The position numbers and the translations under genes are program-made. From an uncultured Gammaproteobacteria bacterium (GTDB lineage Bacteria; Pseudomonadota; Gammaproteobacteria; HK1): a stretch of DNA of 64,000 bases. Position 1 is the stretch's first letter, and every line of letters starts with the position of its first letter. Location: assembly GCA_958295465.1 (NCBI GenBank), contig OY282353.1, positions 930,001-994,000 of the forward strand, in the 5' to 3' direction. This document shows positions 39,422 through 55,969 of the stretch, one piece after another. The notes beneath the pieces were generated by a model. The model saw nothing but the letters and a program-made list of their open reading frames with translations. It ran no database searches and was not told the DNA's origin.

Positions 39422-40354
39422 ATGATTTCGAGCAAGGCCCCGGAGAAGAAGACCATCGAAGTGCTCGGCCGGCGCATGGCCTACGTCGAGACGGGCGAGG
39501 GCGACCCGGTCGTGTTTCAGCACGGCAATCCGACCTCCTCGTACCTGTGGCGCAACGTCATGCCTCACGTGGCCCCCTTCGCCCGCTGCATCGCCATCGA
39601 CCTCATCGGCATGGGCGATTCGGAGAAGCTGGACGATTCCGGGCCCGAGCGCTACCGCTTCGTCGAGCATCGTGCATTCCTCGACGCGGCGCTGGCCGCG
39701 CTGGGCGTGGAGTCGAACGTCACCTGGGTGGTCCACGACTGGGGGTCCGCCCTCGGTTTCGACTGGGCGAACCGGCATCGCGACGCGACGCGGGGCATCG
39801 CCTACATGGAAGCGATCGTCCGCCCGCTGACGTGGACGGAGTGGCCGGACAAGGCGCGGCGGGTCTTCCAGGGGTTCCGTTCCGAGGCGGGCGAGCGGAT
39901 GGTGCTCGCGGACAACGTATTCGTCGAGCGGGTCCTGCCCGGCTCGATCCTGCGCGAGCTGGCCGAAGACGAGATGGCCGTCTACCGGGCGCCGTACCTC
40001 GAGCCGGGCGAGTCGCGACGCCCGACCTTGACGTGGCCGCGGGAGATTCCGATCGAAGGCACGCCGTCGGACGTGACCGAGATCGTCCGAAGCTATGCGG
40101 AATGGATGAGCGGGAACGATCTGCCCAAGCTGTTCGTCAACGCCGAGCCCGGGGCGATCCTGACCGGCGCCCAACGCGAATTCTGCCGCCGGTGGAAGAA
40201 CCAGGAGGAAGTGACCGTACCGGGCGCCCACTTCATCCAGGAGGATTCCCCGCACGAGATCGGGCAGGCGGTTGCCGCCTTCGTGCAGCGGATCGCCGAA
40301 CCGCACGCCGCTCCAAATTCGCTGCCCACGGACCTTGCCGCCGCTTCGCAGTAA
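39422..40354 (+). CDS. Haloalkane dehalogenase (LinB-like, HLD-II); tail altered by IS66 insertion
   Basis: This 310-residue alpha/beta hydrolase strongly resembles LinB: halide-binding Asn in QHGNPTSSYLWRN, nucleophile Asp followed by Trp in VVHDWGSALGFDW, acidic Glu in YMEAIVRPL, and catalytic His in VPGAHFIQEDSP. It should convert halogenated alkanes to alcohols. The IS66 element begins at 40351 and its first bases supply the stop TAA at 40352-40354. The pre-insertion gene would have ended with SRR and a TGA at 42898-42900, so only three residues were lost and the enzyme is probably active. Confidence 0.93.
   Translation: MISSKAPEKKTIEVLGRRMAYVETGEGDPVVFQHGNPTSSYLWRNVMPHVAPFARCIAIDLIGMGDSEKLDDSGPERYRFVEHRAFLDAALAALGVESNVTWVVHDWGSALGFDWANRHRDATRGIAYMEAIVRPLTWTEWPDKARRVFQGFRSEAGERMVLADNVFVERVLPGSILRELAEDEMAVYRAPYLEPGESRRPTLTWPREIPIEGTPSDVTEIVRSYAEWMSGNDLPKLFVNAEPGAILTGAQREFCRRWKNQEEVTVPGAHFIQEDSPHEIGQAVAAFVQRIAEPHAAPNSLPTDLAAASQ
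40343..40350. repeat. Left 8-bp target site duplication of IS66 element
   Basis: GCTTCGCA directly precedes the left terminal inverted repeat, and the identical octamer follows the right end at 42880-42887. Eight bases is the duplication length known for IS66. Confidence 0.95.
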
Positions 40355-40371
40355 GCGCCCCGGGAACGGCG

Positions 40372-42018
40372 CTATTGACGCGGATTGATAAGGGGGCCTT
40401 GGAGCGGGTGTCGAGTGAGGGTATCGGAGTCGAGCCGGGTGGGCAGCAGGGCTTCGACCTCGGCGAGTGATTGCGCCTTGGGCAGTTCGGTGAACACGTG
40501 GCGCAGGTAGGCGTAGGGTTCGAGTGCGTTGGCCTTGGCGGTTTCGATCAGCGAGTAGAGCCGGGCGCTGGCGTTGGCGCCGGGCACGGTATCGGCGAAG
40601 AGCCAGTTGCGTCTTCCGAGGCAGAACGGGCGGATGGCGTTCTCGACGGGGTTGGTGTCGATGCCGTAGCGGCCGTCGTCACAGAAGCGCACCAGCGCGT
40701 TCCACTGGTTGTCGAGGTAGCGCATGGCCTTGCCCAGGGGGCCGGAGGGCAGCACCTTGGGCAGGGTGTCGTCGAGCCAGGCGCGCAGGGCGTTGAGCAC
40801 CGGGACGCTCTCGGCCTGCCGGGCGCGGTGGCGCTGGTCGGGAGGGGTGTCGCGGATGCGGCGCTCGATGGCGTAGAGGGTGCGGATGCGGTGCAGCACG
40901 CTCAGGGCACGGCGCGCCTTCGCGGGTGGGGCCGGAGGCAGCTTGTTCGGATTCAGGCCGAGGCTTTTGAGGGTGTCGGTGAACCCGCGCCGGGCATGGG
41001 CCCAGCACGCCAGGTGCACCAGCCCCTGCTCGCGCACCGCCGGGGCATAGCCGCTGTAGCCGTCGGTGTGCAGCGCGCCGGTGAACCCTGCAAGCAAGCG
41101 TTTGGGGACGTCGCCGGCGCGGGTGGGGTCGTAGTCGAACAGCACGATGGGCGGTTCGGGGCCGGCGCTCATCTGCGCCCAGAGTTGGGACTTCGATTGC
41201 GCGCCCTTGCCGGGTTCTTTGAGCACCTGCACGGTGGTCTCGTCCATCAGCAGGTAGGGGCGGTCGAGCAATTCATCGCGCAGCAGGTTGATGAGAGGGA
41301 CCACGAGTGCGCCGGCGCGCACCATCCACGTCGCCAGCGTGGTGCGCGAGAGGTCGACCCCGAGACGCTTCAGTTGCTGGTGCTGGCGATACAGCGGCAG
41401 CGCATCGGCGTACTTCGCGGTGGCCACGTGGGCGAGCAACCCGGGGCTGGCGAGGCTCCTGGGCAGCGGCTGTGCGGGCATCGGGGCGGTGCGCAGATGC
41501 CCCTCGCAGTGCGGGCAGCGATACTTGCCACGGACATGGCGCAGCACCCGCACCTGGGCGGGGATGATGTCGAGCTGCTCGCTGACCACCTCGCCGAAGC
41601 GTTCCAGCTCGACCCCGTGATGCGGGCAGGTCCGCTCGTCGTGCGCCAACGGATGCTCGATGTCGATACGCGGTAGGGCGTCAGGCAACGGGGCGCGCTT
41701 CGGTGTGGCGCGCCGATGGGCGGCGACCTCGGTGCCCGGGGCGCTCTCGGGCTCCTGCGCCGCGCTGGCCTCGGCCTCGTTGAACAACCCGAGCTGCCCG
41801 TCGGGGAGCTTCTCCGAGGACGGTGCGAAGCGCCGGGCCAGCAGCAGGCGCACCTGCGCTTCCAGGTGCTCGATCCTCGCATCGCGCTGTGCGATGGCCG
41901 CGTCGCGCTCGGTGAGTGCGGATTCGTAGCGACGCACCAGCGTGTGCAGCGAGCCGATGTCGTGGGGCAGCGCTTGCCCGAGGTTCGACACCGGGGCGGT
42001 GACCGGGAGCGTGTTCAT
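40372..42018 (-). CDS. tnpC: IS66 transposase TnpC
   Basis: The start chosen is the ATG at 42018 (MNTLPVTAPV), giving 548 residues. An N-terminal coiled coil (LVRRYESALTERDAAIAQRDA) is followed by the zinc-finger-like CPHHGVELERFG and CPHCEGHLR segments, then the catalytic core (LLMDETTVQVL, LHTDGYSGYAP) and the C-terminal IS66 domain (NPVENAIRPFCLGRRNWLF) with the final Glu region. All parts are intact, so transposition ability is likely. Confidence 0.94.
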   Translation of the reverse strand: MNTLPVTAPVSNLGQALPHDIGSLHTLVRRYESALTERDAAIAQRDARIEHLEAQVRLLLARRFAPSSEKLPDGQLGLFNEAEASAAQEPESAPGTEVAAHRRATPKRAPLPDALPRIDIEHPLAHDERTCPHHGVELERFGEVVSEQLDIIPAQVRVLRHVRGKYRCPHCEGHLRTAPMPAQPLPRSLASPGLLAHVATAKYADALPLYRQHQQLKRLGVDLSRTTLATWMVRAGALVVPLINLLRDELLDRPYLLMDETTVQVLKEPGKGAQSKSQLWAQMSAGPEPPIVLFDYDPTRAGDVPKRLLAGFTGALHTDGYSGYAPAVREQGLVHLACWAHARRGFTDTLKSLGLNPNKLPPAPPAKARRALSVLHRIRTLYAIERRIRDTPPDQRHRARQAESVPVLNALRAWLDDTLPKVLPSGPLGKAMRYLDNQWNALVRFCDDGRYGIDTNPVENAIRPFCLGRRNWLFADTVPGANASARLYSLIETAKANALEPYAYLRHVFTELPKAQSLAEVEALLPTRLDSDTLTRHPLQGPLINPRQ

Positions 42019-42094
42019 GAACCATAGAATAATGACTCGCGACACGTCGCGTGATCAGATGTTCTTATGGTGCGATCAGTGCACCTTATGACCG

Positions 42095-42451
42095 TCAGTA
42101 CATTGAGGCGTAGTGCAAGTGCTGATGCGGGCGCATGCGCCACAGGTCGTAGCCGTCGAGCAGGAAGTTCAGTTGTGCCCCGCTGAGGCTGACCACCGCG
42201 TCGGCGCGGCGCGGCCAGGCGAAGCGCGCACGTTCCAGGCGCTTTTGCCACAGCACGAATCCGCACCGCTCCCAATACAGAATCCGGCACTGGGTGCGCC
42301 GGCGATTGGTGAACACGAACAACTGGGTCGAGAACGGGTCCATCGCCAAGGTGTCCTGCACCAGCGCGGCGAGTCCTGTCATCTGCTTCCTGAAGTCGAC
42401 CGGCTCGACGCACAGCCACACGTCGATGCCCTCGTTCGGCGGACGAATCAT
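42095..42451 (-). CDS. tnpB: IS66 Orf2 protein TnpB
   Basis: The 118-residue product from the ATG at 42451 shows the TnpB pattern: VWLCVEPVDFRKQMTGL, LFVFTNRRRTQCRILYWERCGF, and LDGYDLWRMRPHQHL. TnpB is needed with TnpA and TnpC for IS66 transposition, although its exact role is unclear. The ATG overlaps the tnpA stop as ATGA. Confidence 0.93.
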   Translation of the reverse strand: MIRPPNEGIDVWLCVEPVDFRKQMTGLAALVQDTLAMDPFSTQLFVFTNRRRTQCRILYWERCGFVLWQKRLERARFAWPRRADAVVSLSGAQLNFLLDGYDLWRMRPHQHLHYASMY

Positions 42452-42792
42452 GACAGCCGGCTCGCGCAATCGAGCACCGTGGCGCAGGCCGCGTTCTCGG
42501 CGTGGGCGGGGACCTCGACGACGACGCCGTTGGGCAGATGCACCCGAAACGCGGCGCTGCCCGTGGACAGGTGCACCGGCACGAAGGTGGGCGCCGCCGG
42601 GGCCGGCTCGGTAAGCACACCACGGCGCTTGAGCGTCGAGTGCGCGTTGTACAGTGCGCTGACCGACAGCCCGTGCTCCTGTGCATAGGCTTTCAGCGTC
42701 TGTCGTTGTTCACGACAGGCGCGCAGATGGTCGAGCCAGAATCGGTCGCGCGCCTTGGGACGCGCCCTTGAGTGGGCTCTCGCCTGAGCCAT
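42448..42792 (-). CDS. tnpA: IS66 Orf1 protein TnpA
   Basis: From the ATG at 42792 (MAQARAHSRARPKARDRFW) it has 114 residues with an N-terminal DNA-binding helix-turn-helix (LKAYAQEHGLSVSALYNAHSTLKRRG) and the conserved tail FRVHLPNGVVVEVP. It is the first gene of the IS66 operon. The open frame extends to 42843 but the chosen start fits family length better. Confidence 0.9.
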   Translation of the reverse strand: MAQARAHSRARPKARDRFWLDHLRACREQRQTLKAYAQEHGLSVSALYNAHSTLKRRGVLTEPAPAAPTFVPVHLSTGSAAFRVHLPNGVVVEVPAHAENAACATVLDCASRLS

Positions 42793-42879
42793 CACTGTCA
42801 CCCTCCCACAGGACATTGGAGGGTGCACCGTGGCACGAGCCACACAGCTATGGAATTACGTACTTCTCCGGGCGCTTAC

Positions 42880-42887
42880 GCTTCGCA
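42880..42887. repeat. Right 8-bp target site duplication of IS66 element
   Basis: GCTTCGCA, identical to the octamer before the element. The original dehalogenase reading frame resumes here and stops at 42898-42900. Confidence 0.95.
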
Positions 42888-43087
42888 GAGCCGGCGTTGA
42901 ACGATCGGATACCCCCTCTGGTGGAAATGGAGGCATACTGCTTCAACCAACTGCATGAGGCGGCCATCCGCGGCCTGACTTGAGCAAATCACCCTCCGGG
43001 ATTCCCGGGGCGGTTCACTGCACAAGATTTCGAGCGCCAAGGGATTACGCCGGCCCGACCGCGGCGCCGACGCACGCCATGCCCGAT

Positions 43088-44353
43088 TCACCATCCCACG
43101 ACGGTCGCCAGTCCGTGGTTCTCGATTTGGCGGCGGATCACTTCGGTGAAGACACCATACTCGTGGCCGAGCTCGTCCACTTGCTCCGGCTCCACCAGAG
43201 TGCTCCCCAACCGTCGACGCAGGGACTCCGCCGGCGCAAGCAGCTCCGCTGCGAACGCCCGGGACCGGGCTTGGCGGTCCGTCGCCAGCGAGCTGAGAAT
43301 CACGGGGCCGGGTCCGGACCTGTCCAGGTAATCGCCCAGAGCACGTGCTTGCAGGAACCGTCTTCCTGATTCGCCCCGCGGCGTCACCACGCACGTCGGC
43401 GCATCCGCCGCCACCAGCCCTTGAATGCGTGTCGAAGGCGCTGGCCTCTCGTGGGAACGAAGCGCCAGCGAGCCGTTCCGGGCGAAGTCGAATCGGCCGC
43501 TGTCGCCGGTGCCGAGCTCGCGGTGAACCGAACGCGCCAGAGCGTAGCCTCGCCTCCAGGGCTCCACCGCCGACGGCGGCGGCAGCGCTCGCCGGACATC
43601 CGCCCAGCCGCTGCTCGCCGTCTCCTCAAGATCTTCGAACGCCTGGGACAGCCAGTGGCCCACCTCCGGCAGGCAGTCCGCGCTTGCCGTGGCAGCCAGC
43701 GCGTCGTCGCGTATGGAAGGCTCGGTGTGTTCCCAGAAGGTCACGATTGCGGCGGCCAGAGCATCCGGGACATCGAAGGGATCGATACCGAGCAGCGCGG
43801 CCGCGCGGCTGAATTCCCGTTCGTCGGGGTCGAGCGCATTGACCGCCGCCCATTCGCGATCAAGGGTTTCCAGGGGCAGGCCGTGGCCCCGGAGCCTTTC
43901 GAGCACGGCGTCGACAAGATCGCGGAACTGCGCTTCCAACTCCTCCCGCTCGACGCTCGCTTCCCCTTCACCGACGAATTCGATCCGGGCGTGCGCCGGT
44001 TCGTGTCGCCGCCACCGGAGGCGTATCCGCTCCGGTGCGGGCACCATGGTCAGGCTCGGGAGAACGAAACCGTCGCCGGCAAACGCCAAGTTGTGCCTGC
44101 ACTCGAAACCGGGGTTCTGCTCCCCCGTGTTCTCGACCTCGTGGAAGAGGTGCCACCAGTTGCCGACCAGCCACTCCGCAACGTGGACCAGGGGGACGAC
44201 GACGTGGTCCCTCCAGGAGCGGCTCGAACGATCGAGCACGAAGGTGATGGGCGCGCTGCCCACCTCGATGGAAAGCGCGGCCATGGTGTGGCAGGAGAGG
44301 CGATCCGGCGACGGCGGGGCGTCGACCCAATCGAAGCGAAAACGGACGCTCAT
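43088..44353 (-). CDS. ImmA/IrrE-like protein
   Basis: The protein has 421 residues from the ATG at 44353, overlapping the previous stop as ATGA. The C-terminal portion (QARSRAFAAELLAPAESLRRR, then VDELGHEYGVFTEVIRRQIENHGL) matches the ending of M78/ImmA-IrrE metallopeptidase-like proteins. A clear HExxH zinc motif was not found, so it may be catalytically dead or highly diverged. The N-terminal half (MSVRFRFDWVDAPPSPDRLS) is not recognised. It is third in a likely operon with an uncharacterised protein and a HEPN fragment, which suggests a toxin-antitoxin or defence module. Confidence 0.65.
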   Translation of the reverse strand: MSVRFRFDWVDAPPSPDRLSCHTMAALSIEVGSAPITFVLDRSSRSWRDHVVVPLVHVAEWLVGNWWHLFHEVENTGEQNPGFECRHNLAFAGDGFVLPSLTMVPAPERIRLRWRRHEPAHARIEFVGEGEASVEREELEAQFRDLVDAVLERLRGHGLPLETLDREWAAVNALDPDEREFSRAAALLGIDPFDVPDALAAAIVTFWEHTEPSIRDDALAATASADCLPEVGHWLSQAFEDLEETASSGWADVRRALPPPSAVEPWRRGYALARSVHRELGTGDSGRFDFARNGSLALRSHERPAPSTRIQGLVAADAPTCVVTPRGESGRRFLQARALGDYLDRSGPGPVILSSLATDRQARSRAFAAELLAPAESLRRRLGSTLVEPEQVDELGHEYGVFTEVIRRQIENHGLATVVGW

Positions 44354-44745
44354 GACAGCCCCCTCACCCGTTGCGCCGGGCTGAGTGGATATCCATGGTA
44401 CTCTCCCGACCCCGGTGAGCCCTGCCGGGCTTCGAACACCATGTCTCCTTCGCGATACCAGACATAGCGCGGATAGCCGCCGTCCCAGACCCCGACCTGC
44501 CCTGCCCTCACTGCATCCCGGAGCCAACCCTCGACGAGCTCCCGGCAATCGGCCAAGTCGCGCGGGCACATGCTGGCATCGGGCCGCCGACGGTAGGACG
44601 TTCCGGCGAAACTGGGCCGATCCTTGTGGTACGGGCTGCCGACGTACCGGCAGGATTCGGCGACCTCTGCCAGGTCAATGCCATGCGGCGGCGCGACGAT
44701 CCTGCGCGCCTTCGGGTTGTCACGCTGGAAACGCGGTTTTCGCAT
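44350..44745 (-). CDS. Uncharacterised protein in HEPN/ImmA-like operon
   Basis: This 131-residue protein (MRKPRFQRDNPKARRI at its start) is not assigned to a family. It is rich in Arg, Pro and Tyr, with SPYHKDRPSFAG, a CPRDLADC pair of Cys and a distinctive SGEYHGYPL near the end. Its start overlaps the HEPN gene by 26 bp and its stop overlaps the ImmA-like start by four bases, so the three are translationally coupled. The conserved look of the C-terminus suggests a genuine small partner protein. Confidence 0.6.
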   Translation of the reverse strand: MRKPRFQRDNPKARRIVAPPHGIDLAEVAESCRYVGSPYHKDRPSFAGTSYRRRPDASMCPRDLADCRELVEGWLRDAVRAGQVGVWDGGYPRYVWYREGDMVFEARQGSPGSGEYHGYPLSPAQRVRGLS

Positions 44746-44953
44746 GATCGCGGTACCGATTCAGAATCTCTCGACAAATACCCTCCGCCTGCTTGCGGTC
44801 CCCATCATCTACCGACTCCGCTCGATTGTGGGCAAGCGGATTCCTCACTTTGGCGAGGATGTTGAATTTCAAGGCCCAGCTTTGCTTGTCTTTTCCAAGT
44901 AGAGGTTCGCCAAGGTTTGCCCAATCGGCGGACATTATCTTGTACAGATCCAT
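44720..44953 (-). CDS. HEPN (Swt1-like) domain fragment
   Basis: The 77-residue product contains FNILAKVRNPLAHNRAESV, whose RNPLAH matches the Rx4H motif of Swt1-like HEPN domains. Upstream an in-frame TAA lies 12 codons before the ATG at 44953, so the normally longer N-terminal part is missing. It is probably the surviving tail of a larger gene whose 5' half was lost in the decayed region beyond 44953. If translated, it could still be a small HEPN RNase. The region is AT-richer than its surroundings. Confidence 0.6.
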   Translation of the reverse strand: MDLYKIMSADWANLGEPLLGKDKQSWALKFNILAKVRNPLAHNRAESVDDGDRKQAEGICREILNRYRDHAKTAFPA

Positions 44954-46057
<1,104 letters not shown>

Positions 46058-46209
46058 ATTGAGAAGGGAATGGTTCTCCGGCTTGTCCATCCGGGCACTC
46101 GACGCCCGCCCGGCGTCGGACTCACCCGCCCAATGGGCGCTCGACGGCCCCTCGAGAAAGCGGGGATGCGGGGTCGCTCCGGCGCTCCCGGCGTGTATTG
46201 GGAGAGACG

Positions 46210-47364
46210 ATGGGAATCGGAAGCGCATGTGCGGGAAACAGGCCGGGTCGCCACGTGACGCTCGAACACTTCGTCATCACGCGATTCTGCCTGCGCGACC
46301 GCTGGCTGCACCGGCGCACGGGCCTTACGGCTTTCCGCACCATGGACCCGCTGACGCCCCGCACCGTCGACCTGCGTCTGAGCCTGCTGGAGACCACCTG
46401 CCTGCCCGCGCTGCGGTCGCAGACGAATCGGGACTTCACCTGGATCCTGCTCATCGACCGTGACCTGGGCCGGGCGGCCCGGCAAAGGCTGCGGGATATG
46501 ACGCACGGCATGGATCGCGTCCGGTTCGTCGAATACCGCGCGGATGCGCCGCAGCCACTGGAGCGCCTCGGCTGGCTGGCGCCGCTCTGGCAAAGCCGCC
46601 CGGACTACGTCGTCACGACGCTCAACGATGATGACGACGCGCTGCCCCGGCGCTGGATCGAAGTGGTTCAGTCCCATGCCCGCCACCTCGCCGCCCAGGA
46701 TCGGCTGCCGCCGTTCCAGCTCGCCGGGGCCAGGCGGATCGTCCAGTGGGACATGATCTTCACGCCCGGCGCACCCTTCGGATGGGCCGGTCCGTGGCGC
46801 GGGCTGGCGTCCGTGGCGTCGTGCGGGTTTTCGCTGCTGTGCCGCTGGCCGGCGTTCGACTTCAGCGTTTTCGGCCTGAGCCATATGTATGCGGAGACGT
46901 ACGGCGACTTCCTGACGCCGTCTCCGTCCGAGCACGTGCGCCTGGTCCGGCAGTGGCTCGTGCAGGCGGCACGGGATGCGCGGGTCGGCCGCATCCCGAT
47001 GGGACGCGACGCCTTCTTCGACGCCAGCCACGACGCCGGCGCGGTGGTGATAGCGAACCACGGCGGCAACTTCGAGCCGTGGCGGCTGAACCGGGGGCCC
47101 TGGCCGGGGGAGAACGAGGGACCTGCCCTTGAGAGAGGCTTCCGGCCGGCGGATGCGGCCACGTTCCCGGACGTCGAGATCGACTGGCAGGCGGCCGAAC
47201 GCCACCACCGGCACTTTCGTCCCTGGCGCGTTCGGTCCAGACTGCTGGAGCACAGGCTGCACGAAGGCCGGAGGACCGCGGTGCGGCGATTGCGCGAATT
47301 GACGAACGGCATTCGTTCGCGGCTCTCCCTCGGTGCGCCGGGGCCTGAAAACGACGATAAGTAA
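46210..47364 (+). CDS. Putative rhamnosyltransferase-type glycosyltransferase
   Basis: The start chosen is the ATG at 46210, behind GGGAGAG; a GTG at 46255 is an alternative. The 384-residue protein shows the pattern of the putative rhamnosyl transferase family: FVITRFCLRD, LLETTCLPALRSQTNRDFTWILLID and a DDDDALP acidic cluster after VVTTLN that should bind a metal-nucleotide sugar. It lies at the left edge of the peptide cluster and could glycosylate the product or a surface polysaccharide. Confidence 0.78.
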   Translation: MGIGSACAGNRPGRHVTLEHFVITRFCLRDRWLHRRTGLTAFRTMDPLTPRTVDLRLSLLETTCLPALRSQTNRDFTWILLIDRDLGRAARQRLRDMTHGMDRVRFVEYRADAPQPLERLGWLAPLWQSRPDYVVTTLNDDDDALPRRWIEVVQSHARHLAAQDRLPPFQLAGARRIVQWDMIFTPGAPFGWAGPWRGLASVASCGFSLLCRWPAFDFSVFGLSHMYAETYGDFLTPSPSEHVRLVRQWLVQAARDARVGRIPMGRDAFFDASHDAGAVVIANHGGNFEPWRLNRGPWPGENEGPALERGFRPADAATFPDVEIDWQAAERHHRHFRPWRVRSRLLEHRLHEGRRTAVRRLRELTNGIRSRLSLGAPGPENDDK

Positions 47365-47372
47365 GAGACCGC

Positions 47373-47537
47373 GTGGCGTCGGGGAAGCCGGTCTGCCCGG
47401 CCACGGCCGCCACCGAACGCTTCAACGCTTCGTGCCGGGTACGCTCGTCCTGGCGGGTTCCTTCCTGCGACACCATCCCGGGGGCGACGGGGAGATCGTC
47501 GTCATCCACGACGCCCTGTCCGGAGGTGCGCATTGAA
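47373..47537 (+). pseudogene. Fragment of a second GT8-like glycosyltransferase
   Basis: Translations in adjacent frames resemble the start of the intact-type gene at 48310: CPATAATERF in one, then RFVPGTLVLAGSFLRHHPGG and DGEIVVIHDAL in another. It ends after about 55 codons. This is a truncated, frameshifted paralogue, so the glycosyltransferase was duplicated in this cluster and one copy decayed. Confidence 0.7.
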
Positions 47538-47969: not shown

Positions 47970-47975
47970 AGGAGG
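47970..47975 (+). promoter_or_regulatory. Strong ribosome binding site of the precursor gene
   Basis: AGGAGG, a perfect anti-Shine-Dalgarno match, ends eight bases before the ATG at 47984. This decides the start within a longer open frame and supports real translation of the small peptide. Confidence 0.9.
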
Positions 47976-47983
47976 CAAGCGCC

Positions 47984-48169
47984 ATGACCACCCCGGCAAC
48001 GAAGCTGGAAAACGAAGAGGCCGACGACCGGACGAAGCTGGCCGTCACACCCCGGAAACCCTGGAAAAAGCCTGTCGTCAAGCGGATATTCGAAGGCCTT
48101 GGAATGACGGCAAGCGGCGGGGCGAGAGGTCCCGGCGGGGAGTCGTCCACATATACACATGTCTCTTGA
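47984..48169 (+). CDS. Putative RiPP precursor peptide (lasso-like)
   Basis: The product has 61 residues: a charged leader (MTTPATKLENEEADDRTKLA), then KPWKKPVVKRIFEGLGMTAS and a Gly-rich C-terminus GGARGPGGESSTYTHVS. WKKPVV resembles the YxxPxL element of lasso leaders, and Thr42 precedes the presumed cleavage zone. If the core starts at Gly45, Glu53 is at position 9, a permitted acceptor for a lasso ring, leaving the tail SSTYTHVS. The terminal Ser is what HPr-like kinases phosphorylate in paeninodin. The cyclase and kinase genes are within 5 kb. The RiPP role is inference; Thr42 is at -3 rather than the usual -2. Confidence 0.7.
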   Translation: MTTPATKLENEEADDRTKLAVTPRKPWKKPVVKRIFEGLGMTASGGARGPGGESSTYTHVS

Positions 48170-48309
48170 TCGAAATTCGGCCAGGAGTCCTGCGCCGTGG
48201 AAAACGTTGCGGCAACCGGCGGACAGGAGCCGGGGGAAGGGATACCGACGGCATTTCGCCTCCGTGAGCGGACCCGGATGCGGCGGCGCGGATTCCCGGC
48301 CGCTTGAAC

Positions 48310-49259
48310 ATGCCTCCGCCAACGTCGCGGGTCTGTCTGGTGACCGCCACCACCGAACGCTTCGTGCCCGGCACACTTGTCACACTCGGCTCCTTCCAGA
48401 GACACCACCCGGATTTCAACGGCGATGTCGTCGTCGTCCATGAGGCGCTGCCGGAGGCGCATCGGCGGCGCCTTGCCGAGGCGTGTCCCCGCTTGCGCTT
48501 CGAGCCGGTCTCTGCCGAGCTGGGCGAGCGCCTCGCCGCGTTGAGCGCCGCATGCCCGGACTTCACACCCAGGCTGAGCCAGTTCTACTCCCTTGAAGCC
48601 TTCCGGCTGAGCGGATACCGCAAGGTTCTCTTCTACGACAGCGACGTGCTTTTTCAAGCGCCGGTGGGCGAGCTGTTCGGCTCGGCCGGGGCATTGCTGT
48701 GTTGCGGCGACGACGTGTTCCTGCGTGGCTGGCGCCGGGACGCCGGCACCTTCGCACCTTCGCACCGTTGCGGCCGGGGCAACGGCCCGGCGCGGCAGGA
48801 ACGCTGGACCGCACCTTCGGCGCCGGCTTTCTGCTGATTGACGCGGCGCTCGTGGAAGAGGGCTGCTACGACTCCCTGCTCGCCCTGGTATCTCCGGAGA
48901 CCTGGCGCGGCACGACGACGACGCACACGGATCAGATCGTCCTGAACCGGTGCTTCGCGGGGCGCCAGACACTGGTCGGCTGGACGTACGATTTCGCCCT
49001 GCCGATGGCCGAATCCATTCGGCTGCGCGACGGCGTCTGCGCCGCAACGGCCAAAGTGCTGCACTTCGCCGGCCCGATCAAACCCTGGATGCCGGACGCC
49101 CTGTTGCGCTGGACGTCGGGCGACCCGAGATTCAAGCCGATACAGGCATTCAAGACCTGGTGGAACGTCTATGTCGATTGCCTTGCCGCCGCGCACGTGC
49201 AAAGCGCCCGGGCGAGGCTCCGCCATCGGCAAGGATGCGTGCCGCCGGCGGGGTCGTGA
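48310..49259 (+). pseudogene. GT8-like glycosyltransferase broken by an 8-bp tandem duplication
   Basis: The first frame from 48310 (MPPPTSRVCLVTATTERF) contains the DxD-type motif VLFYDSDVLFQAP and ends at 48837 in nonsense. The second frame continues correctly (FGAGFLLIDAALVEEG, TTTHTDQIVLNRCFAG, VLHFAGPIKPW) to a TGA at 49257-49259. The break is the duplicated octamer CACCTTCG at 48747-48762. Removing one copy restores a single 313-residue frame. Such enzymes transfer a hexose from a nucleotide sugar. The change could be reversible slippage or a recent mutation. Confidence 0.87.
48747..48762. repeat. 8-bp perfect tandem duplication causing a frameshift
   Basis: CACCTTCGCACCTTCG: two copies of an octamer. 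One copy keeps the glycosyltransferase in frame (GTFAPLRPGQRPGAAGTLD); two copies shift it. Confidence 0.95.
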
Positions 49260-50113
49260 ACCGCATCCCGGGGGCGAACCGCGACCTCGCCCGGCTGATC
49301 GCCACACACTTGTTCGTGATTTGCCCGAACAATAGCGGATCGTCGTTCCTCGCCGCGGCGCTTCATACCTGCCGGGCGGTCTGGCGTTTGCCGCAGGAAG
49401 GCCACTGGGTACAGGGCTTTCGGGGCCCCGTGCCCTGGCGGTTGCGGCGACCCGGCGGCCCGCCTCCGGACCTGTTGTGGGCATCCCGCCGGGAATGGAT
49501 CAATCAGTTCACGGACCCGAGCCGTCACGACTGGCCCATCACGCGCAAGGCATGGTACTTCCACGCCCGCGCCCGCGACCCGAACGCTTCGGTGTTCGTC
49601 GCCCGATCGACACCGCACCTGCTGCAGGTGGAACAGTTGCAGCACCACTTCCCGAACGCCAGGTTCGTGTTCATGGTGCGCAATCCCTACGCGGTTTGCG
49701 AGGGGATCTGCCGGCGCTACCGAACACGGCGCGTCCACGCGTACGAGAGTGGTTTCGTTCGGACCGGACGGAGCCTGGAGGCAACCGCCGCACGGCATGT
49801 CGCCGCCTGCCTGGCGTGGCAGCGGCGAAACGTCGAGCGGTACCGGGACAGCGGTGTTTTCTTCACCTACGAGGCGATGTGCGCCGCCCCGGTGGAAACG
49901 GCACGACGGATCCACGGCCTCGTTCCGGCGCTCGACGATCTGAACCTGCGCCAGCGGCTCGTGGCGAAGGACTATCGCGAAATGCTCACCGACATGAACG
50001 AGCGTCAGTTGGCGAACCTCGGTGGCGAGCAGATCACGACGTTCAACCGCGTGTTCCGGGATCACCGGGAGCTTCTGCGCCACTTCGGTTACGACGTCAT
50101 CGATCGGGGGTAG
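49256..50113 (+). CDS. Sulfotransferase-like protein
   Basis: The start chosen is the GTG at 49256, which overlaps the glycosyltransferase stop; an ATG at 49232 is possible. The 285-residue protein has a P-loop-like PAPS-binding start (LFVICPNNSGSSFLAAAL) and the second phosphate-binding block FVFMVRNPYAVCEGICRRY, as in sulfotransferase family proteins. It likely moves sulfate from PAPS to a hydroxyl, for instance on the peptide tail (Ser, Thr or Tyr) or on a sugar. It is coupled with the glycosyltransferase. Confidence 0.75.
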   Translation: MNRIPGANRDLARLIATHLFVICPNNSGSSFLAAALHTCRAVWRLPQEGHWVQGFRGPVPWRLRRPGGPPPDLLWASRREWINQFTDPSRHDWPITRKAWYFHARARDPNASVFVARSTPHLLQVEQLQHHFPNARFVFMVRNPYAVCEGICRRYRTRRVHAYESGFVRTGRSLEATAARHVAACLAWQRRNVERYRDSGVFFTYEAMCAAPVETARRIHGLVPALDDLNLRQRLVAKDYREMLTDMNERQLANLGGEQITTFNRVFRDHRELLRHFGYDVIDRG

Positions 50114-50142
50114 CCCTGCGCCGGCATCGGTTTGCGCCGCCG

Positions 50143-51981
50143 TCAGAAGTCCAGCAACAGCAACGCGGCACGAATCGGTGCGATTTGCGGCCTGGCGCGG
50201 AAACGCTCCGTGTCCAGGCGTTCCAGGAGTCGGGGCATGTCGATGTAGCAGGCCCTCGACGGCGGCTCCATGCGAGTTTCCAGCTTTCGCCGCACCACCG
50301 GCAGTGCGCCGGCGAAGGCGGCGGCCATCGGCTCGAATCGGGCCGGGTCGGCCTTGCCGGGATTCCAGCAAACTTCCGCCGGCAGCATCGGATCCAGTGC
50401 GCGGCGCACCAGCCACCGGCTCCACCTGCCGTGCCGGAACTGCTCCGGCGGCAGGCTGAGCGCGAATTCCAGCAACCGGCGATCCAGCAGCGGATAGCGG
50501 TACTCGATGCCGTGGCGCACGCCGCCCGCGGCCCAACCCTCGATCCGTTCCGCCAGATGGCCGGCTTGCAGCAGCCATAGCTGCGTGCGCCGCACCCCCA
50601 CGAAACGGGGAACGGGCTCCGGCAGGGGTTTTACCCGCCGCGCGAATGCCGGGTCGATCAGCCAGCGCCGATGCAGCAACTCCTCTCCCCGCAGCAGCCG
50701 GCGGAGGTTGCCGGGAAGGCGCGGATGCACCAGCGGCAGAACGACGCCCGCCAGGAACTTCAATGGATTGGCGCCGCCCTCGCGGCTCGACGCCAGCAAC
50801 CTCCCCAAGCGTCCGCTCAGCAGCAAGTGCGCGTTTCGGCCGCGGCCATCGAAGGACACGCCTTCGTCCCCGCCCCAGCCCGAAAGCAGCACCTCGACGC
50901 CTCGCTCCGCGGCACAGCGCTGCACGACTTCTTCATTCAGATGGACGTGTACACCGGGATAGGCGACGTCGCGCGACAGCACGGCAACCATGTCTTCAAC
51001 GCTCGGCGAACGGTGGAATACCGTGAGCTTTTCCTGTTCGCACACCGCGTCGACGAGGTCGTACTCCGACGTGCCGGCCGTCCCTGGCGACGTCTCGTCG
51101 CGCCCCGGCAACCAACTGAAGGCAAGCGGCGGTGGGCGGCCCTGCCGGCGCAGCTCACGCGCCGCAAGCACCGCGACGCCGGACGAATCCAGGCCTCCGC
51201 TCAGGTGGACGCCGGCCGTGCCGGCCGCCGGCAGCCGCGCCTTCACCGCCTGCGAACAGATGTGCAGGAACTGCTCCCCGTAACCGGCGTCCGTAGCGGA
51301 CGCCGCTCTTGGCGTTCGCTCCGGACGCCAGTACCGCCGCAGCCTTGCGGTGCAACGGGAGCCGTGGCCCACGGTGAGCGTATGGCCCGGTGGCAGCTTG
51401 CGCACCGCCTTGAAGAACGTGCGGGTGGCGGTCGTCGGACTGACGCGCGTCAGATAGGCCGCCACCGTGGCCTCGTCGAGCCCGTCGCCGACGAACGGCA
51501 CGGCAAGGACGGCTTCCACGGCGCTGGCGAAGACGAAGCGTTCCGGTGTCACGGCGTAGTAGAACGGTCTCGCGCCGACATGATCCCGGGCGCAGACGAG
51601 AACGCGCTGCTTCGCGTCCCATATGGCGAAAGCGTAGTCGCCGAGCAAGTGGTCGGGACAATCCCCATCCCAGCGCCGGTAGGCCCGCAGGATGAGGTCG
51701 TCTTCGACGAGACCGGCACGTTCGGCATGGGGAATGCCGAGTGCGCCGCAAAGCTCCTCCCGGTTGTCCAGACGGGAATCCGCGGCCACGGCGAGGCCCG
51801 CACCGGCATCCGTGCAGATCGCCCTTGCGCGGCCTGCGCCTGACGGGCGCCGAACGCCGAGACCTGCGCCCGTGCCTCGCCACTCGGCACCATCCGCTCC
51901 GTAGGCGTCGAGTGCATCCATTGCAGCGGCCAGCGAGTCGCCGGCGCCGTCAGGAGAGAGGATTCCGCAGATCGCGCCCAT
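50143..51981 (-). CDS. Asparagine-synthetase-like protein (lasso cyclase type)
   Basis: At 612 residues it has an N-terminal glutaminase-like domain beginning MGAICGILSPDG. Position 2 is Gly, not the catalytic Cys, so ammonia production from glutamine is unlikely, as in lasso cyclases. The synthetase domain has the PP-loop SGGLDSS at 261-267 and VLLSGWGGDEGVSFDGRG, a form typical of asparagine synthetase homologues in RiPP clusters. It would adenylate an Asp or Glu side chain (Glu53 of the precursor) and form a macrolactam. It diverges from the kinase gene. Confidence 0.85.
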   Translation of the reverse strand: MGAICGILSPDGAGDSLAAAMDALDAYGADGAEWRGTGAGLGVRRPSGAGRARAICTDAGAGLAVAADSRLDNREELCGALGIPHAERAGLVEDDLILRAYRRWDGDCPDHLLGDYAFAIWDAKQRVLVCARDHVGARPFYYAVTPERFVFASAVEAVLAVPFVGDGLDEATVAAYLTRVSPTTATRTFFKAVRKLPPGHTLTVGHGSRCTARLRRYWRPERTPRAASATDAGYGEQFLHICSQAVKARLPAAGTAGVHLSGGLDSSGVAVLAARELRRQGRPPPLAFSWLPGRDETSPGTAGTSEYDLVDAVCEQEKLTVFHRSPSVEDMVAVLSRDVAYPGVHVHLNEEVVQRCAAERGVEVLLSGWGGDEGVSFDGRGRNAHLLLSGRLGRLLASSREGGANPLKFLAGVVLPLVHPRLPGNLRRLLRGEELLHRRWLIDPAFARRVKPLPEPVPRFVGVRRTQLWLLQAGHLAERIEGWAAGGVRHGIEYRYPLLDRRLLEFALSLPPEQFRHGRWSRWLVRRALDPMLPAEVCWNPGKADPARFEPMAAAFAGALPVVRRKLETRMEPPSRACYIDMPRLLERLDTERFRARPQIAPIRAALLLLDF

Positions 51982-52064
51982 TCAGCAGCCGGATCGCCAG
52001 TTTGCCCGTGTCATGCGAACGCCGGGGTATCATGGCACGGGCAGTACGGACCCGAAGCGGAATC
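51982..52064. promoter_or_regulatory. Divergent promoter region between cyclase and kinase genes
   Basis: These 83 bp separate two outward-facing starts, so both promoters should lie here. No specific boxes were identified with confidence. Confidence 0.4.
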
Positions 52065-52967
52065 ATGATGCGAGCGCAGCGCGACTACACCGCCTTCGGC
52101 CTGCATGTGCGTTCACCCATCGCCCTGCCGTTTCGGCCGTCTTCCACGACATGCAGCGAGCCGGACGTGGTCGTTCGCCTCGGCGCAACGCCGGCGTCGC
52201 TGCCGGCGCCGGTCGTCAAACGCGGGGTCTGGGAGGCGGCGTCCGGCGCGTTCTTGCTGACGATCGACGACGTGGCTCGCTATCACGTCACCCACGGCTG
52301 CCGCATTCTCATCGAGCCGTGGTGCGACGACCATCACGACATCGGCGTATTCCTCGTCGGCTCGGTATTCGCCGCGCTGCTGCAGCAGCGCGGCGTGGTT
52401 CCCCTGCACGCCAGCGCCATTGCCACCGGCGCTGGCGCCGTACTGCTCGCCGGGCGTTCCGGTGTCGGCAAGTCGTCCCTGCTGGCCGCCTTGATCAAGC
52501 GCGGCCATACCATGCTGGCGGACGACGTAACCGGCGTGATCGTCGATCAGGGCCGCCCTGTCGCCTTGCCTGCCTTTCCCGACATCCGGCTGTGGGCGGA
52601 TGCGCTGGACGCGCTCGATTGGCGGCCGCAGGCGGGGAAGCGGGTACGGGAGAGCGTCGAAAAGTTCATCCTGCCGGCAGAGCGATTCCGCAGCGAGCCG
52701 CTCGACATCCGGGCGTACTTCGCATTGCGGACCGGAAACGGGTTCGCCGTCGAGAAGGCATCCTCCCGAGCGGCGATGGATCTGCTGTTCGCGCACACTT
52801 ACCGCAAGCACTTCCTGCGAGGACTGGGCCGGCAGGAAACACATTTCAGCACCGTCGATCGGATCGCAAAGCACATACCGGTCTTCCGCATGACGCGGCC
52901 CGCATACCCGTCTTTGCTCGACGGATTGGCGGATCGAATCGAGACGTGCCTGGCGACGCCTCCCTGA
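52065..52967 (+). CDS. HPr-kinase-like peptide kinase
   Basis: The protein has 300 residues from the ATG at 52065. The central HprK-like ATPase has LHASAIATG (His115), the P-loop GRSGVGKSS at 130-138 and the acidic LADDVTGV at 151-158. The N-terminal half lacks the HPr kinase regulatory domain. Homologues in lasso clusters (paeninodin type) phosphorylate the C-terminal Ser of the precursor; the precursor at 47984 ends in Ser. The kinase diverges from the cyclase gene. Direct action on this peptide is inference. Confidence 0.82.
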   Translation: MMRAQRDYTAFGLHVRSPIALPFRPSSTTCSEPDVVVRLGATPASLPAPVVKRGVWEAASGAFLLTIDDVARYHVTHGCRILIEPWCDDHHDIGVFLVGSVFAALLQQRGVVPLHASAIATGAGAVLLAGRSGVGKSSLLAALIKRGHTMLADDVTGVIVDQGRPVALPAFPDIRLWADALDALDWRPQAGKRVRESVEKFILPAERFRSEPLDIRAYFALRTGNGFAVEKASSRAAMDLLFAHTYRKHFLRGLGRQETHFSTVDRIAKHIPVFRMTRPAYPSLLDGLADRIETCLATPP

Positions 52968-52993
52968 CTGCGCGACATTGGCGGCAAGCTCTC

Positions 52994-53860
52994 CTACAAA
53001 CACTCTTCCGCTTCCGCCAGATAGCCGAGCCGTTCCATCATCGGCCCGTGCCCGGCAACCAGCTTCCGTACTTGTCCGGGCTGCAGGTACGCGCGCCACG
53101 AGCCAGCCATGCCGGCGCGAAAGAAGCACGGCGCCGTTCTCGATTTCTCCCGGAATCCCGACCGGGCTTCCTGAAAGCGCAGGCGTTCGAAGGCCGAGTG
53201 GTCAATGGCTCGTGCCAGACGTGCGTGGTCGAAGTCCAGTCCGGCAAAGCGGACGAACGCGCCGAACGCGGCCTCCGGGGCGGCGATCATGTCCTCGTAG
53301 CGCATCACGTGAACGGTCAGATGCCGCTGGTTCAGCCAGCTCGATACGTGATCGCTCCACGTCCCGAGCGGCTGCGGCAAGAAGAGACGGATGCCTCGGG
53401 ATCCGTCTCCTTCGGCCGCCGTCGGGTCGTTCATCCAGTCGATGGTGTCGTCCAGAGGCTGTTGCCGATGGTGCGCATAGGAAACCGCCACATCGAGGGG
53501 ATTGCGCACGACGTAGACCACGCCCGCGGTTGCCGTCCGCGGGAAGATCGACCTGCCGCCGGCGAGGGCATACGCGTCGTGAACCTTGAGGTATGCCGGC
53601 GACGGCATCTCCTCCGCCAGCAGCTCGTGAAACAACGTCCGGTAGGCGCACAGCTCGCCCGGCGTGAGGTTCGAGGAATCCAGGCCGGTGAATTCGTCGA
53701 AGAAGTCGCGGAGGACCGGGGAGGGGCCGCCGAAGAGACCGTTGATGGATGCAGGAACGGCGCTCCCGCCTTCGTTCGTGGACCGCAGGTAGTTGGTGAG
53801 AAATGCCCGCAGCCAGGTGTTGCCGGACTTGGGGTAGGATGCGAGCCAGAAGATCGACAC
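52994..53860 (-). CDS. Sulfotransferase
   Basis: This 288-residue protein has the classic PAPS-binding loop at its start (IFWLASYPKSGNTWLRAFL), the 3'-phosphate block (VVYVVRNPLDVAVSYAHH) and the C-terminal FRAGMAGSWRAYLQPGQ that resembles the GxxGxWK region of sulfotransferases. It would sulfate a hydroxyl of a small molecule or peptide. Its end faces the kinase gene end with a 26-bp gap. It is a second, more canonical sulfotransferase in the peptide cluster. Confidence 0.88.
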   Translation of the reverse strand: MSIFWLASYPKSGNTWLRAFLTNYLRSTNEGGSAVPASINGLFGGPSPVLRDFFDEFTGLDSSNLTPGELCAYRTLFHELLAEEMPSPAYLKVHDAYALAGGRSIFPRTATAGVVYVVRNPLDVAVSYAHHRQQPLDDTIDWMNDPTAAEGDGSRGIRLFLPQPLGTWSDHVSSWLNQRHLTVHVMRYEDMIAAPEAAFGAFVRFAGLDFDHARLARAIDHSAFERLRFQEARSGFREKSRTAPCFFRAGMAGSWRAYLQPGQVRKLVAGHGPMMERLGYLAEAEECL

Positions 53861-54032: not shown

Positions 54033-55177
<1,145 letters not shown>

Positions 55178-55181
<4 letters not shown>

Positions 55182-55969
55182 CGGATCACCGTCCCCGCGC
55201 CGTCGAGGGCGGTGCGGATCGGATGCTCCACCCGGCCGTCGCCGATGACGACCTCGGCCGCCCCCGCCTCGAAGAGCCTGCGAAGCGCCAGCATCTTGCG
55301 CTTCATGCGTCCCTCCACCTGCGCCTCGCGCCGTTCGAGCTCCGCCCGCGACATCGTGGCGACGACGCTCTCCGGGTCGCCGGCGTCGTCGAGGAAGCCC
55401 GGCGCCTCGATGAGCTGGACGATGCGCTCGGCGCCGAGCGCGGCCTGGAGCACGTTCACGATGTCGTCGTTCTCCGAGTTGATGGCGAACCCGTTCTCGT
55501 CGGCGATGGGGATGGTGAGCACCGGGGTGTATCCGCCGTCGAGGAGGGTGCGGAGCAACACCGCGTTCACCGCCCGCGGCTTGCCCGAGAGATCGCGCCG
55601 GATCAGCGTCTTCCCGCCTTCCCGGACCCGGATCCCCCGGTTGCGCTCCCCCTCCACCATGCGCCCGTCGATGCCGGACAGCCCGATCGCGTTGACCCCG
55701 CGGCGCTGGCACAGCTCGACGAAGCGCTTCGAGCGCAGCCCCGAGTACGCCATCATGATCACGTCGAGCGCGGTCTCGTCGGAAAACACGCTCGTATAGC
55801 CCGACACCGAGGTCAGGGTGCGGCGGGGCGAGCCGAGGCGCGCGGCGAGATCGTCGCGCACCGCGTTGGCCCCGAGCACGACGACGCAAGGGATTTCGAT
55901 TGAAGCGAGATCGCCGGCGACCCCGGCGAGGTTCACCGCCTCGCCGCCACCGACCTTCACGATGTACAT
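55178..55969 (-). CDS. [LysW]-aminoadipate/glutamate kinase (LysZ-like amino acid kinase)
   Basis: This 263-residue amino acid kinase starts MYIVKVGGGEAVNLAGV. The stretch RRGVNAIGLSGIDGRMVEGER, followed by RRDLSGKPRAVN, resembles LysZ more than bacterial ArgB, which normally has a longer N-terminus. PIADENGFAINSENDD and the final EVVIGDGRVEHP fit the family. It phosphorylates the carboxylate of a carrier-bound amino acid. LysW and LysX are not in the window. The pair is coupled with the aminotransferase. Confidence 0.83.

Follow-up and report, generated by a model that had tools for sequence, protein, structure and literature searches.

Kinase-bearing lasso-peptide clusters are already known in Proteobacteria (e.g. 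in Sphingobium), and the known lasso kinases phosphorylate the C-terminal Ser of the linear precursor (PMC8498205, PMC9266682), a set of His-Lys-Asp-Asp residues being reported as essential in the kinases that act on this Ser (PMC9266682). For Firmicutes, a review has noted putative genes for sulfotransferases and nucleotidyltransferases in lasso clusters that include a kinase, as well as a fusion of an NTP_transf_5 domain to the leader peptidase (PMC8498205). Here we analysed a locus (positions 47,970 to 53,860) within a 64,000-nt stretch of DNA (hereafter the window; bases 930001-994000 of the single-contig 5.68-Mb genome G000 of an uncultured gammaproteobacterium, with a completeness of 97.9% and a contamination of 2.25% by the tool's estimate), which a first-pass annotation had described as a candidate lasso-like cluster of ribosomally synthesized and post-translationally modified peptides (RiPPs). 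We consider that the locus is probably a satellite cassette within a dispersed system for lasso peptides, in which a remote leader peptidase would serve many private cyclases. Throughout the text, B1 stands for the RRE protein/PqqD, B2 for the leader peptidase, hub for a locus with B2 and satellite for a cassette without it; G002 (placed in one genus with G000), G005, G038-G045 and G049 are other genomes, L-numbers denote loci of ~20 kb, and genome-wide gene counts were taken from searches of each genome.

The locus resembles the paeninodin-type systems (PadeK, ThcoK, SyanK) in pairing a lasso cyclase with an HprK-like kinase that carries His-Lys-Asp-Asp, and in having precursors that end in Ser. 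It differs from them in two respects: the described clusters have their own B1, B2 and D, which are absent from most cassettes here (B2 being single in the genome), and sulfotransferases, GT8 glycosyltransferases, 2OG-Fe(II) oxygenases and a conserved E-x3-Y tail are added. With pseudomycoidin (kinase plus nucleotidyltransferase, phosphoglycosylated) the common feature is an NTP_transf_5 enzyme associated with the B2 machinery, which in the hub is fused to B2, like the fusion of Firmicutes; unlike in pseudomycoidin, there is one fused enzyme in the genome, remote from most precursors. As in multi-precursor lasso clusters such as that of the caulosegnins (PMC13352647), shared enzymes would process several precursors; however, the caulosegnins have one cyclase for all within one cluster, whereas here many dispersed cyclases, with their own spacer classes, would share a peptidase. 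The citrulassins likewise need an enzyme (PAD) encoded elsewhere in the genome (PMC9266682), but there the remote enzyme is an optional tailoring one; in the present system the remote component would be the leader peptidase, which is essential, and most cassettes would depend on a remote RRE protein and exporter as well. Finally, the linear polyphosphorylated peptides, which are related and are served by a signal-peptidase-like enzyme (PMC13381572), lack a macrolactam cyclase and have a SipW-like signal peptidase together with kinase and RRE, whereas our locus encodes a full-length cyclase and the surroundings of the satellites showed no peptidase family that recurs.

Compact clusters from sphingomonads (Citromicrobium NP26, L084; Sphingorhabdus soli, L080; Pontixanthobacter, L079/L081) share with the window locus the precursor signature, the cyclase branch, the kinase, Sulfotransfer_1 and GT8, and in three of these four loci also Sulfotransfer_3. 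Unlike the window locus, they hold B1 and B2 within the same 20 kb, and those of Citromicrobium and Sphingorhabdus the exporter too. The Citromicrobium cluster comprises (by Pfam) NTP_transf_5, B2, PqqD, the cyclase, an Asp/Asn hydroxylase, the kinase, Sulfotransfer_1, Sulfotransfer_2 and GT8; sequence similarity adds a relative of Sulfotransfer_3, and another Sulfotransfer_2 match stays below the threshold.

Hub and satellite loci

The notion of a self-sufficient cluster does not hold, as B1, B2 and the exporter lie elsewhere in the genome. G000 harbors 11 close cyclases (all open and near full length), 3 PqqD/B1 genes and one B2, so that the B1 and B2 needed for lasso biosynthesis are present for the genome as a whole. 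The possibility that a local B1 or B2 had been overlooked through weak profiles was considered and rejected, the Transglut_core3 and NF033537 profiles agreeing on the single B2 and none of the three PqqD genes lying near the window. This B2 makes up the C-terminal domain of a fusion protein whose N-terminal domain is NTP_transf_5; its gene lies in a hub ~2.3 Mb from the window locus, next to an ABC transporter, with a PqqD gene ~17 kb off and both a cyclase and a precursor no more than 10 kb away.

The same disproportion recurs in related genomes, with precursor/cyclase/B1/B2 counts of 26/9/5/1 (G038), 9/7/3/1 (G039), 19/6/2/1 (G040), 8/3/2/1 (G041), 5/6/5/1 (G042), 5/4/3/1 (G043) and 2/2/2/2 (G044), some cyclase matches in G039, G042 and G044 being fragments, and Pfam adding three weak sub-threshold transglutaminase matches. 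Six of these seven genomes thus hold 3-9 cyclases and 5-26 precursors with one B2. G045 and four sphingomonads have one cyclase and one B2 each, except for two B2 matches in G049. B2 is present in every genome that has these cyclases, and for most cyclases in the gammaproteobacterial loci that were read, no B2 lies closer than 10 kb. When all genes within 9 kb of ~40 cyclases were clustered, we recovered the known parts, a DUF-like 92-aa protein, two AAA-like ATPase families, mobile-element-like genes and the PF11316 glycosyltransferase; no unannotated protease family recurred near the satellites, and an unknown protease common to them was rejected on this account.

Three further observations concern the content of these loci. 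A recurrent coiled-coil-like protein of 84-126 aa (MTASTFDTLSAARELEAAGIE..., with ATKADLA repeats) is scattered among L032, L036, L037, L039, L046 and others, being found in 11 of the loci clustered around cyclases. A second, divergent lasso-like group of G000 lies in L041 (G000:C1:2199001-2219000), with leaders DERKAWTEPRLMRLG, two tandem cyclases distantly like that of the window (E ~1e-40), three HprK-like genes or parts, Sulfotransfer_1, 2OG oxygenases and PqqD, again without B2. Moreover, near a lasso satellite, L035 (12154-12429; G000:C1:4242154-4242429) encodes a RiPP precursor of the NHLP type (nitrile-hydratase leader) above the TIGR03793 cut-off.

Precursor family and proposed private cyclases

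The 61-aa precursor gene (47984..48169, + strand; ATG at 47984, stop ending at 48169) and its perfect AGGAGG ribosome-binding site (47970..47975, + strand, 8 nt upstream of the ATG) are both read directly in the sequence, as the first-pass annotation had noted. By family alignments and positional statistics, the peptide consists of a leader with the RRE box KPWKKPVV and the spacer KRIFEGLGM, followed by TA-SGGARGPGGESSTYTHVS; it ends in THVS, with Glu53 as the predicted ring acid, Tyr57 at Glu+4 and the C-terminal Ser as the predicted kinase site. No NCBIfam or Pfam model matches it, and a search of G000 with the peptide itself retrieved weak but real paralogues, most of them near other asparagine-synthetase homologues. 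A profile of 12 precursors found 23 places in G000, 8 in G002 and 5 in G005, and one of 31 precursors found 25 places in G000 and 1-26 in twelve other genomes; for G000 we take ~20 as the safe figure, since the weakest profile matches may be chance. Dozens of relatives occur in other genomes and phyla, most near a related cyclase, and as judged from these sequences the precursor is far above chance occurrence. The 61-aa gene is conserved as a family in related genomes, and in most loci read the cyclase relatives stand beside small precursor genes, which speaks against their being members of exopolysaccharide or O-antigen loci devoid of such genes.

The family consensus begins with an often Pro-rich N-terminal part, continues with the box K-[KR]-P-W-x-K-P-x-[IV]-R (commonly WxKPx[IV]) and a spacer of ~8-19 residues, and then reads T-x-[SGT]-G (the core start being mostly T-x-[SGT]G), 6-9 residues, E, three residues, Y and an end in P-x-S or P-S. 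The W and P of the box are invariant in 31 aligned precursors, and the box (WKKPVV in the window) matches the RRE-binding motif published for lasso leaders, [YW]xxPx[LVIAFY] (PMC13381572). Of 52 distinct cores, 29 have Glu at position 9, compared with a background frequency of 8% (P ~5e-19, a value that overstates independence because the sequences of the family are related to one another), and any acid at core positions 7-9 is found in 30 of the 52. Of 66 sequences, 37 have the E-x3-Y motif among their last 14 residues (5.8 expected by shuffling, with a maximum of 17 in 2000 shuffles), and 56 of 66 distinct precursors have a C-terminal Ser. By pattern anchor, Thr stands at the penultimate leader position in 35 of 57 precursors; applied to the T-A-S-G of the window, this rule gives S1 as the core start and puts the Glu at position 10, while a start at G1, one residue later and as assumed in the first-pass annotation, puts it at 9. 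The monoisotopic mass calculated for the predicted window product after loss of water is 1600.723 with the G1 start and 1687.755 with the S1 start, to which each phosphate or sulfate group would add 79.966 or 79.957, respectively. Within the VDGEV class (L031, L051-L053, L055 and L056) the distance from the [SGT]G start to the Glu is 9, 10 or 11 residues, that from the Glu to the C-terminus being nearly fixed, and either ring size or cleavage site varies in this class.

The cyclase (50143..51981, - strand; 612 aa; Asn_synthase at 102.5 bits plus GATase_7) has an intact PP-loop (SGGLDSS) and begins with MGAICG, its class-II Cys standing at position 5 and not at position 2, in agreement with the earlier description of an asparagine-synthetase homologue without the glutaminase Cys2. 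Its best NCBIfam model is the lasso cyclase NF033535 (322.6 bits, E 6e-96; next best 162.9 bits), which together with the RRE box, the positioned Glu and the C-terminal Ser of the precursor family upholds the assignment to a lasso-type RiPP. The nearest relatives (60-65% identical) are found in other uncultured Pseudomonadales/Gammaproteobacteria. The plasmid records searched held ordinary asparagine synthetases only, and a sequence search of the PDB returned hydroxyamidotransferase, asparagine synthetase B and classical HprK, with no lasso cyclase or kinase structure close enough.

A maximum-likelihood tree of 60 cyclases resolved well-supported groups, to each of which a genome contributes about one member; these orthologue groups recur across genomes, the members of one group adjoining precursors with the same spacer (e.g. 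RIIPLHRMAR, RTVDGE, ITTEGNVFE). Across 43 precursor-cyclase pairs, spacer identity was 0.61 within cyclase groups versus 0.17 between them (Mantel r 0.60, with 0 of 1000 permutations as high), the corresponding values being 0.69 versus 0.59 for the RRE box and 0.29 versus 0.22 for the ring residues. Shared descent of neighbouring genes adds to the spacer signal; the ring, in the same gene, is without such a signal. Furthermore, codon changes in the leader amount to 160, 178 and 320 at the first, second and third positions, thus falling mostly on the third, and tail codons have no such bias. As read from these comparisons, the leader spacer tracks the cyclase and the RRE box is near-universal, a pattern which points to private cyclases and a shared peptidase.

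Tailoring genes and flanking DNA

The kinase gene (52065..52967, + strand) encodes H115, K136, D153 and D154, that is, the invariant His, Lys and Asp plus the second Asp of lasso kinases, and with a precursor ending in Ser the proposed likeness to the paeninodin kinase stands. Both expected sulfotransferases were found, one of the Sulfotransfer_3 type (49235..50113, + strand; Pfam 52 bits; 61% identical to a paralogue at another satellite) and one of the Sulfotransfer_1 type (52994..53860, - strand; with the motifs YPKSGNT and RNPLDV). We argue that they belong to the cassette, as had been supposed, since they recur in the compact clusters of cultured sphingomonads; by sequence similarity alone, kinase and Sulfotransfer_1 genes accompany a lasso cyclase in Bacteroidales loci too. 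Sulfotransferases and GT8 form part of the cassette set, and several satellites also carry 2OG-Fe(II) oxygenases. The combination of modifications, put forward as undescribed, is less unfamiliar than thought, given the putative sulfotransferase genes of kinase-bearing lasso clusters (PMC8498205); nevertheless, no sulfated lasso peptide was found in the literature searched, which was of partial coverage, nor under 'sulf' in a 2026 review (PMC13352647), where a passage listing lasso modifications names phosphorylation, acetylation, prenylation, chlorination and Ser glycosylation. The tail Tyr as the site of sulfation is a guess, because the sphingomonad clusters have both the Tyr and a sulfotransferase and no lineage separates the two.

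The predicted GT8-like gene (48304..49259, + strand) is present, with Pfam Glyco_transf_8 in both halves, but is not one intact gene as assembled: comparison with intact paralogues by tblastn shows it split over two frames (48304-48837 and 48699-49259) and locates the break between 48753 and 48786. Because of this frameshift, glycosylation by the window locus is unlikely as assembled, and the sugar that had been envisaged on the product becomes doubtful; the frameshift may, on the other hand, be a sequencing error in the metagenome-assembled genome.

The flank of the cassette is disturbed: besides an IS66 transposase and a GT8 fragment, it holds a haloalkane dehalogenase gene together with an incomplete second copy. 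The haloalkane dehalogenase gene adjoins the IS66 element (40372-42792) within window positions 39422-46100, and its truncated second copy lies at ~45760-46060. A PF11316-type glycosyltransferase gene (46255..47364, + strand), whose membership of the cassette is uncertain, has a close paralogue in the hub (L032, 18773-19963; phmmer E 2e-196). Both genes precede GT8 sequence, which in the window is a mere remnant of a second GT8 gene (47417..47527, + strand) seen in comparison with GT8 genes; to judge from this arrangement, a PF11316 plus GT8 segment may have been exchanged between hub and satellite. On the other side, the cassette is adjoined (54033-55969, - strand) by genes for a LysJ/ArgD-like transaminase and a kinase above the cut-off for [LysW]-aminoadipate kinase, a type of lysine/arginine route that is uncommon in a gammaproteobacterium.

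Proposed pathway and its alternatives

From the gene parts, the conserved precursor signature, the single B2 set against many cyclases per genome and the match between cyclase and spacer, we infer the chemical steps as well as threading, supply in trans and export. The WKKPVV box of the precursor would be bound by a shared RRE protein (B1/PqqD) encoded elsewhere, the local kinase would phosphorylate the C-terminal Ser while the precursor is still linear, and the sulfotransferases would sulfate a hydroxyl, most plausibly (as a guess) that of the conserved tail Tyr. The remote B2, fused to NTP_transf_5 and standing beside the ABC exporter, would then cut the leader near T-A/S or A-S/G, a role ascribed to this single enzyme because no other peptidase was found. 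The local cyclase, matched to the leader spacer, would join the new N-terminus to Glu53, a ring closure that we predict with some firmness, and the hub exporter may export the product. About a dozen cassettes in the genome seem to work in this manner, each making a lasso-like cyclic peptide with its own cyclase and its own decorating enzymes.

Several points weigh against such a pathway. The window locus has neither B1 nor B2, and no exporter lies within the cassette. The NF033535 score of the cyclase is below the strict cut-off of the model (525), a shortfall that is not special to this locus, since compact-cluster cyclases with their own B1 and B2 fall short too (262 and 242 bits). Counted from S1, the Glu at 10 is outside positions 7-9 of described rings, and only the G1 start gives 9. 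Moreover, this particular satellite may be decaying, since its GT8 is broken and its flank holds IS66 and gene fragments.

In one alternative, ring closure by the cyclase still takes place, yet it gives an unthreaded macrolactam or a lasso relative with a larger ring. A ring acid 9-11 residues after the core start with only ~8 residues beyond it would suit such a product, as would the shifting Glu of the VDGEV class at its nearly constant distance to the end, and the Glu at 10 that the Thr rule assigns to the window. However, Glu at 9 dominates overall, the cyclase, RRE and B2 are all lasso-type, and a cleavage site one or two residues away would bring the ring back to 9, so that we think this product unlikely. 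The frameshifted GT8, the GT8 fragment, IS66 and the duplicated dehalogenase fragment around the window locus, together with split or partial cyclases in some genomes, could instead mean that the satellites are relics, i.e. duplicated pieces of a cluster that now make nothing, B1, B2 and the exporter not having been copied along. This we hold to be distinctly unlikely, as the 11 close cyclases of G000 all have open, nearly full-length reading frames, cyclase groups and their matching spacers are kept across genomes, and changes in the leader fall mostly on third codon positions.

A further explanation dispenses with supply in trans, in that another, unrecognised peptidase would remove the satellite leaders or the cyclase would work without leader removal by B2. 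It finds some backing in pseudomycoidin, which according to the title of Zyubko et al. (cited in PMC9266682) is made without leader and leader peptidase, and in the signal-peptidase-like enzyme of the related linear polyphosphorylated peptides (PMC13381572); yet the lack of a recurring unannotated protease-like family near the satellites, the RRE box kept in all precursors and the B2 of every cyclase-bearing genome make it very improbable. An exopolysaccharide or O-antigen amidotransferase beside an incidental small ORF, which the nearby glycosyltransferases and sulfotransferases and a weaker match to eps_aminotran_1 might suggest, can be dismissed with near certainty, because precursor genes are found with these cyclases in different genomes and phyla and vary along with them, and the NF033535 score is about twice that of any alternative.

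Taken together, the observations fit a lasso system best. All parts of the dispersed system are of known kinds; what is new is the arrangement, in which many cyclases and precursors of a genome would share one leader peptidase, with a tailoring set rich in sulfotransferases. More tentatively, and with somewhat more doubt than confidence, we envisage a genome-wide combinatorial system in a lineage of uncultured Gammaproteobacteria, in which one B2 and one hub exporter would serve up to ~25 precursors, each directed to its own cyclase by a private spacer. The products would be phosphorylated at the C-terminal Ser and sulfated, probably at the tail Tyr, with some of them hydroxylated or glycosylated too, and they would be the first lasso peptides to carry sulfate. 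Cultured sphingomonads, with their compact versions of the cluster, offer a means of testing the sulfotransferase question. If the dispersed system is real, lasso biosynthesis would not be tied to one self-sufficient cluster, and cluster mining that requires a nearby B1 and B2 would miss most such cassettes. Furthermore, a universal peptidase box combined with a private cyclase box in the leader would represent a natural design rule by which parallel lasso pathways run without cross-talk; this rule would be directly usable for libraries, and the genome itself would constitute an unusually modular natural peptide library.

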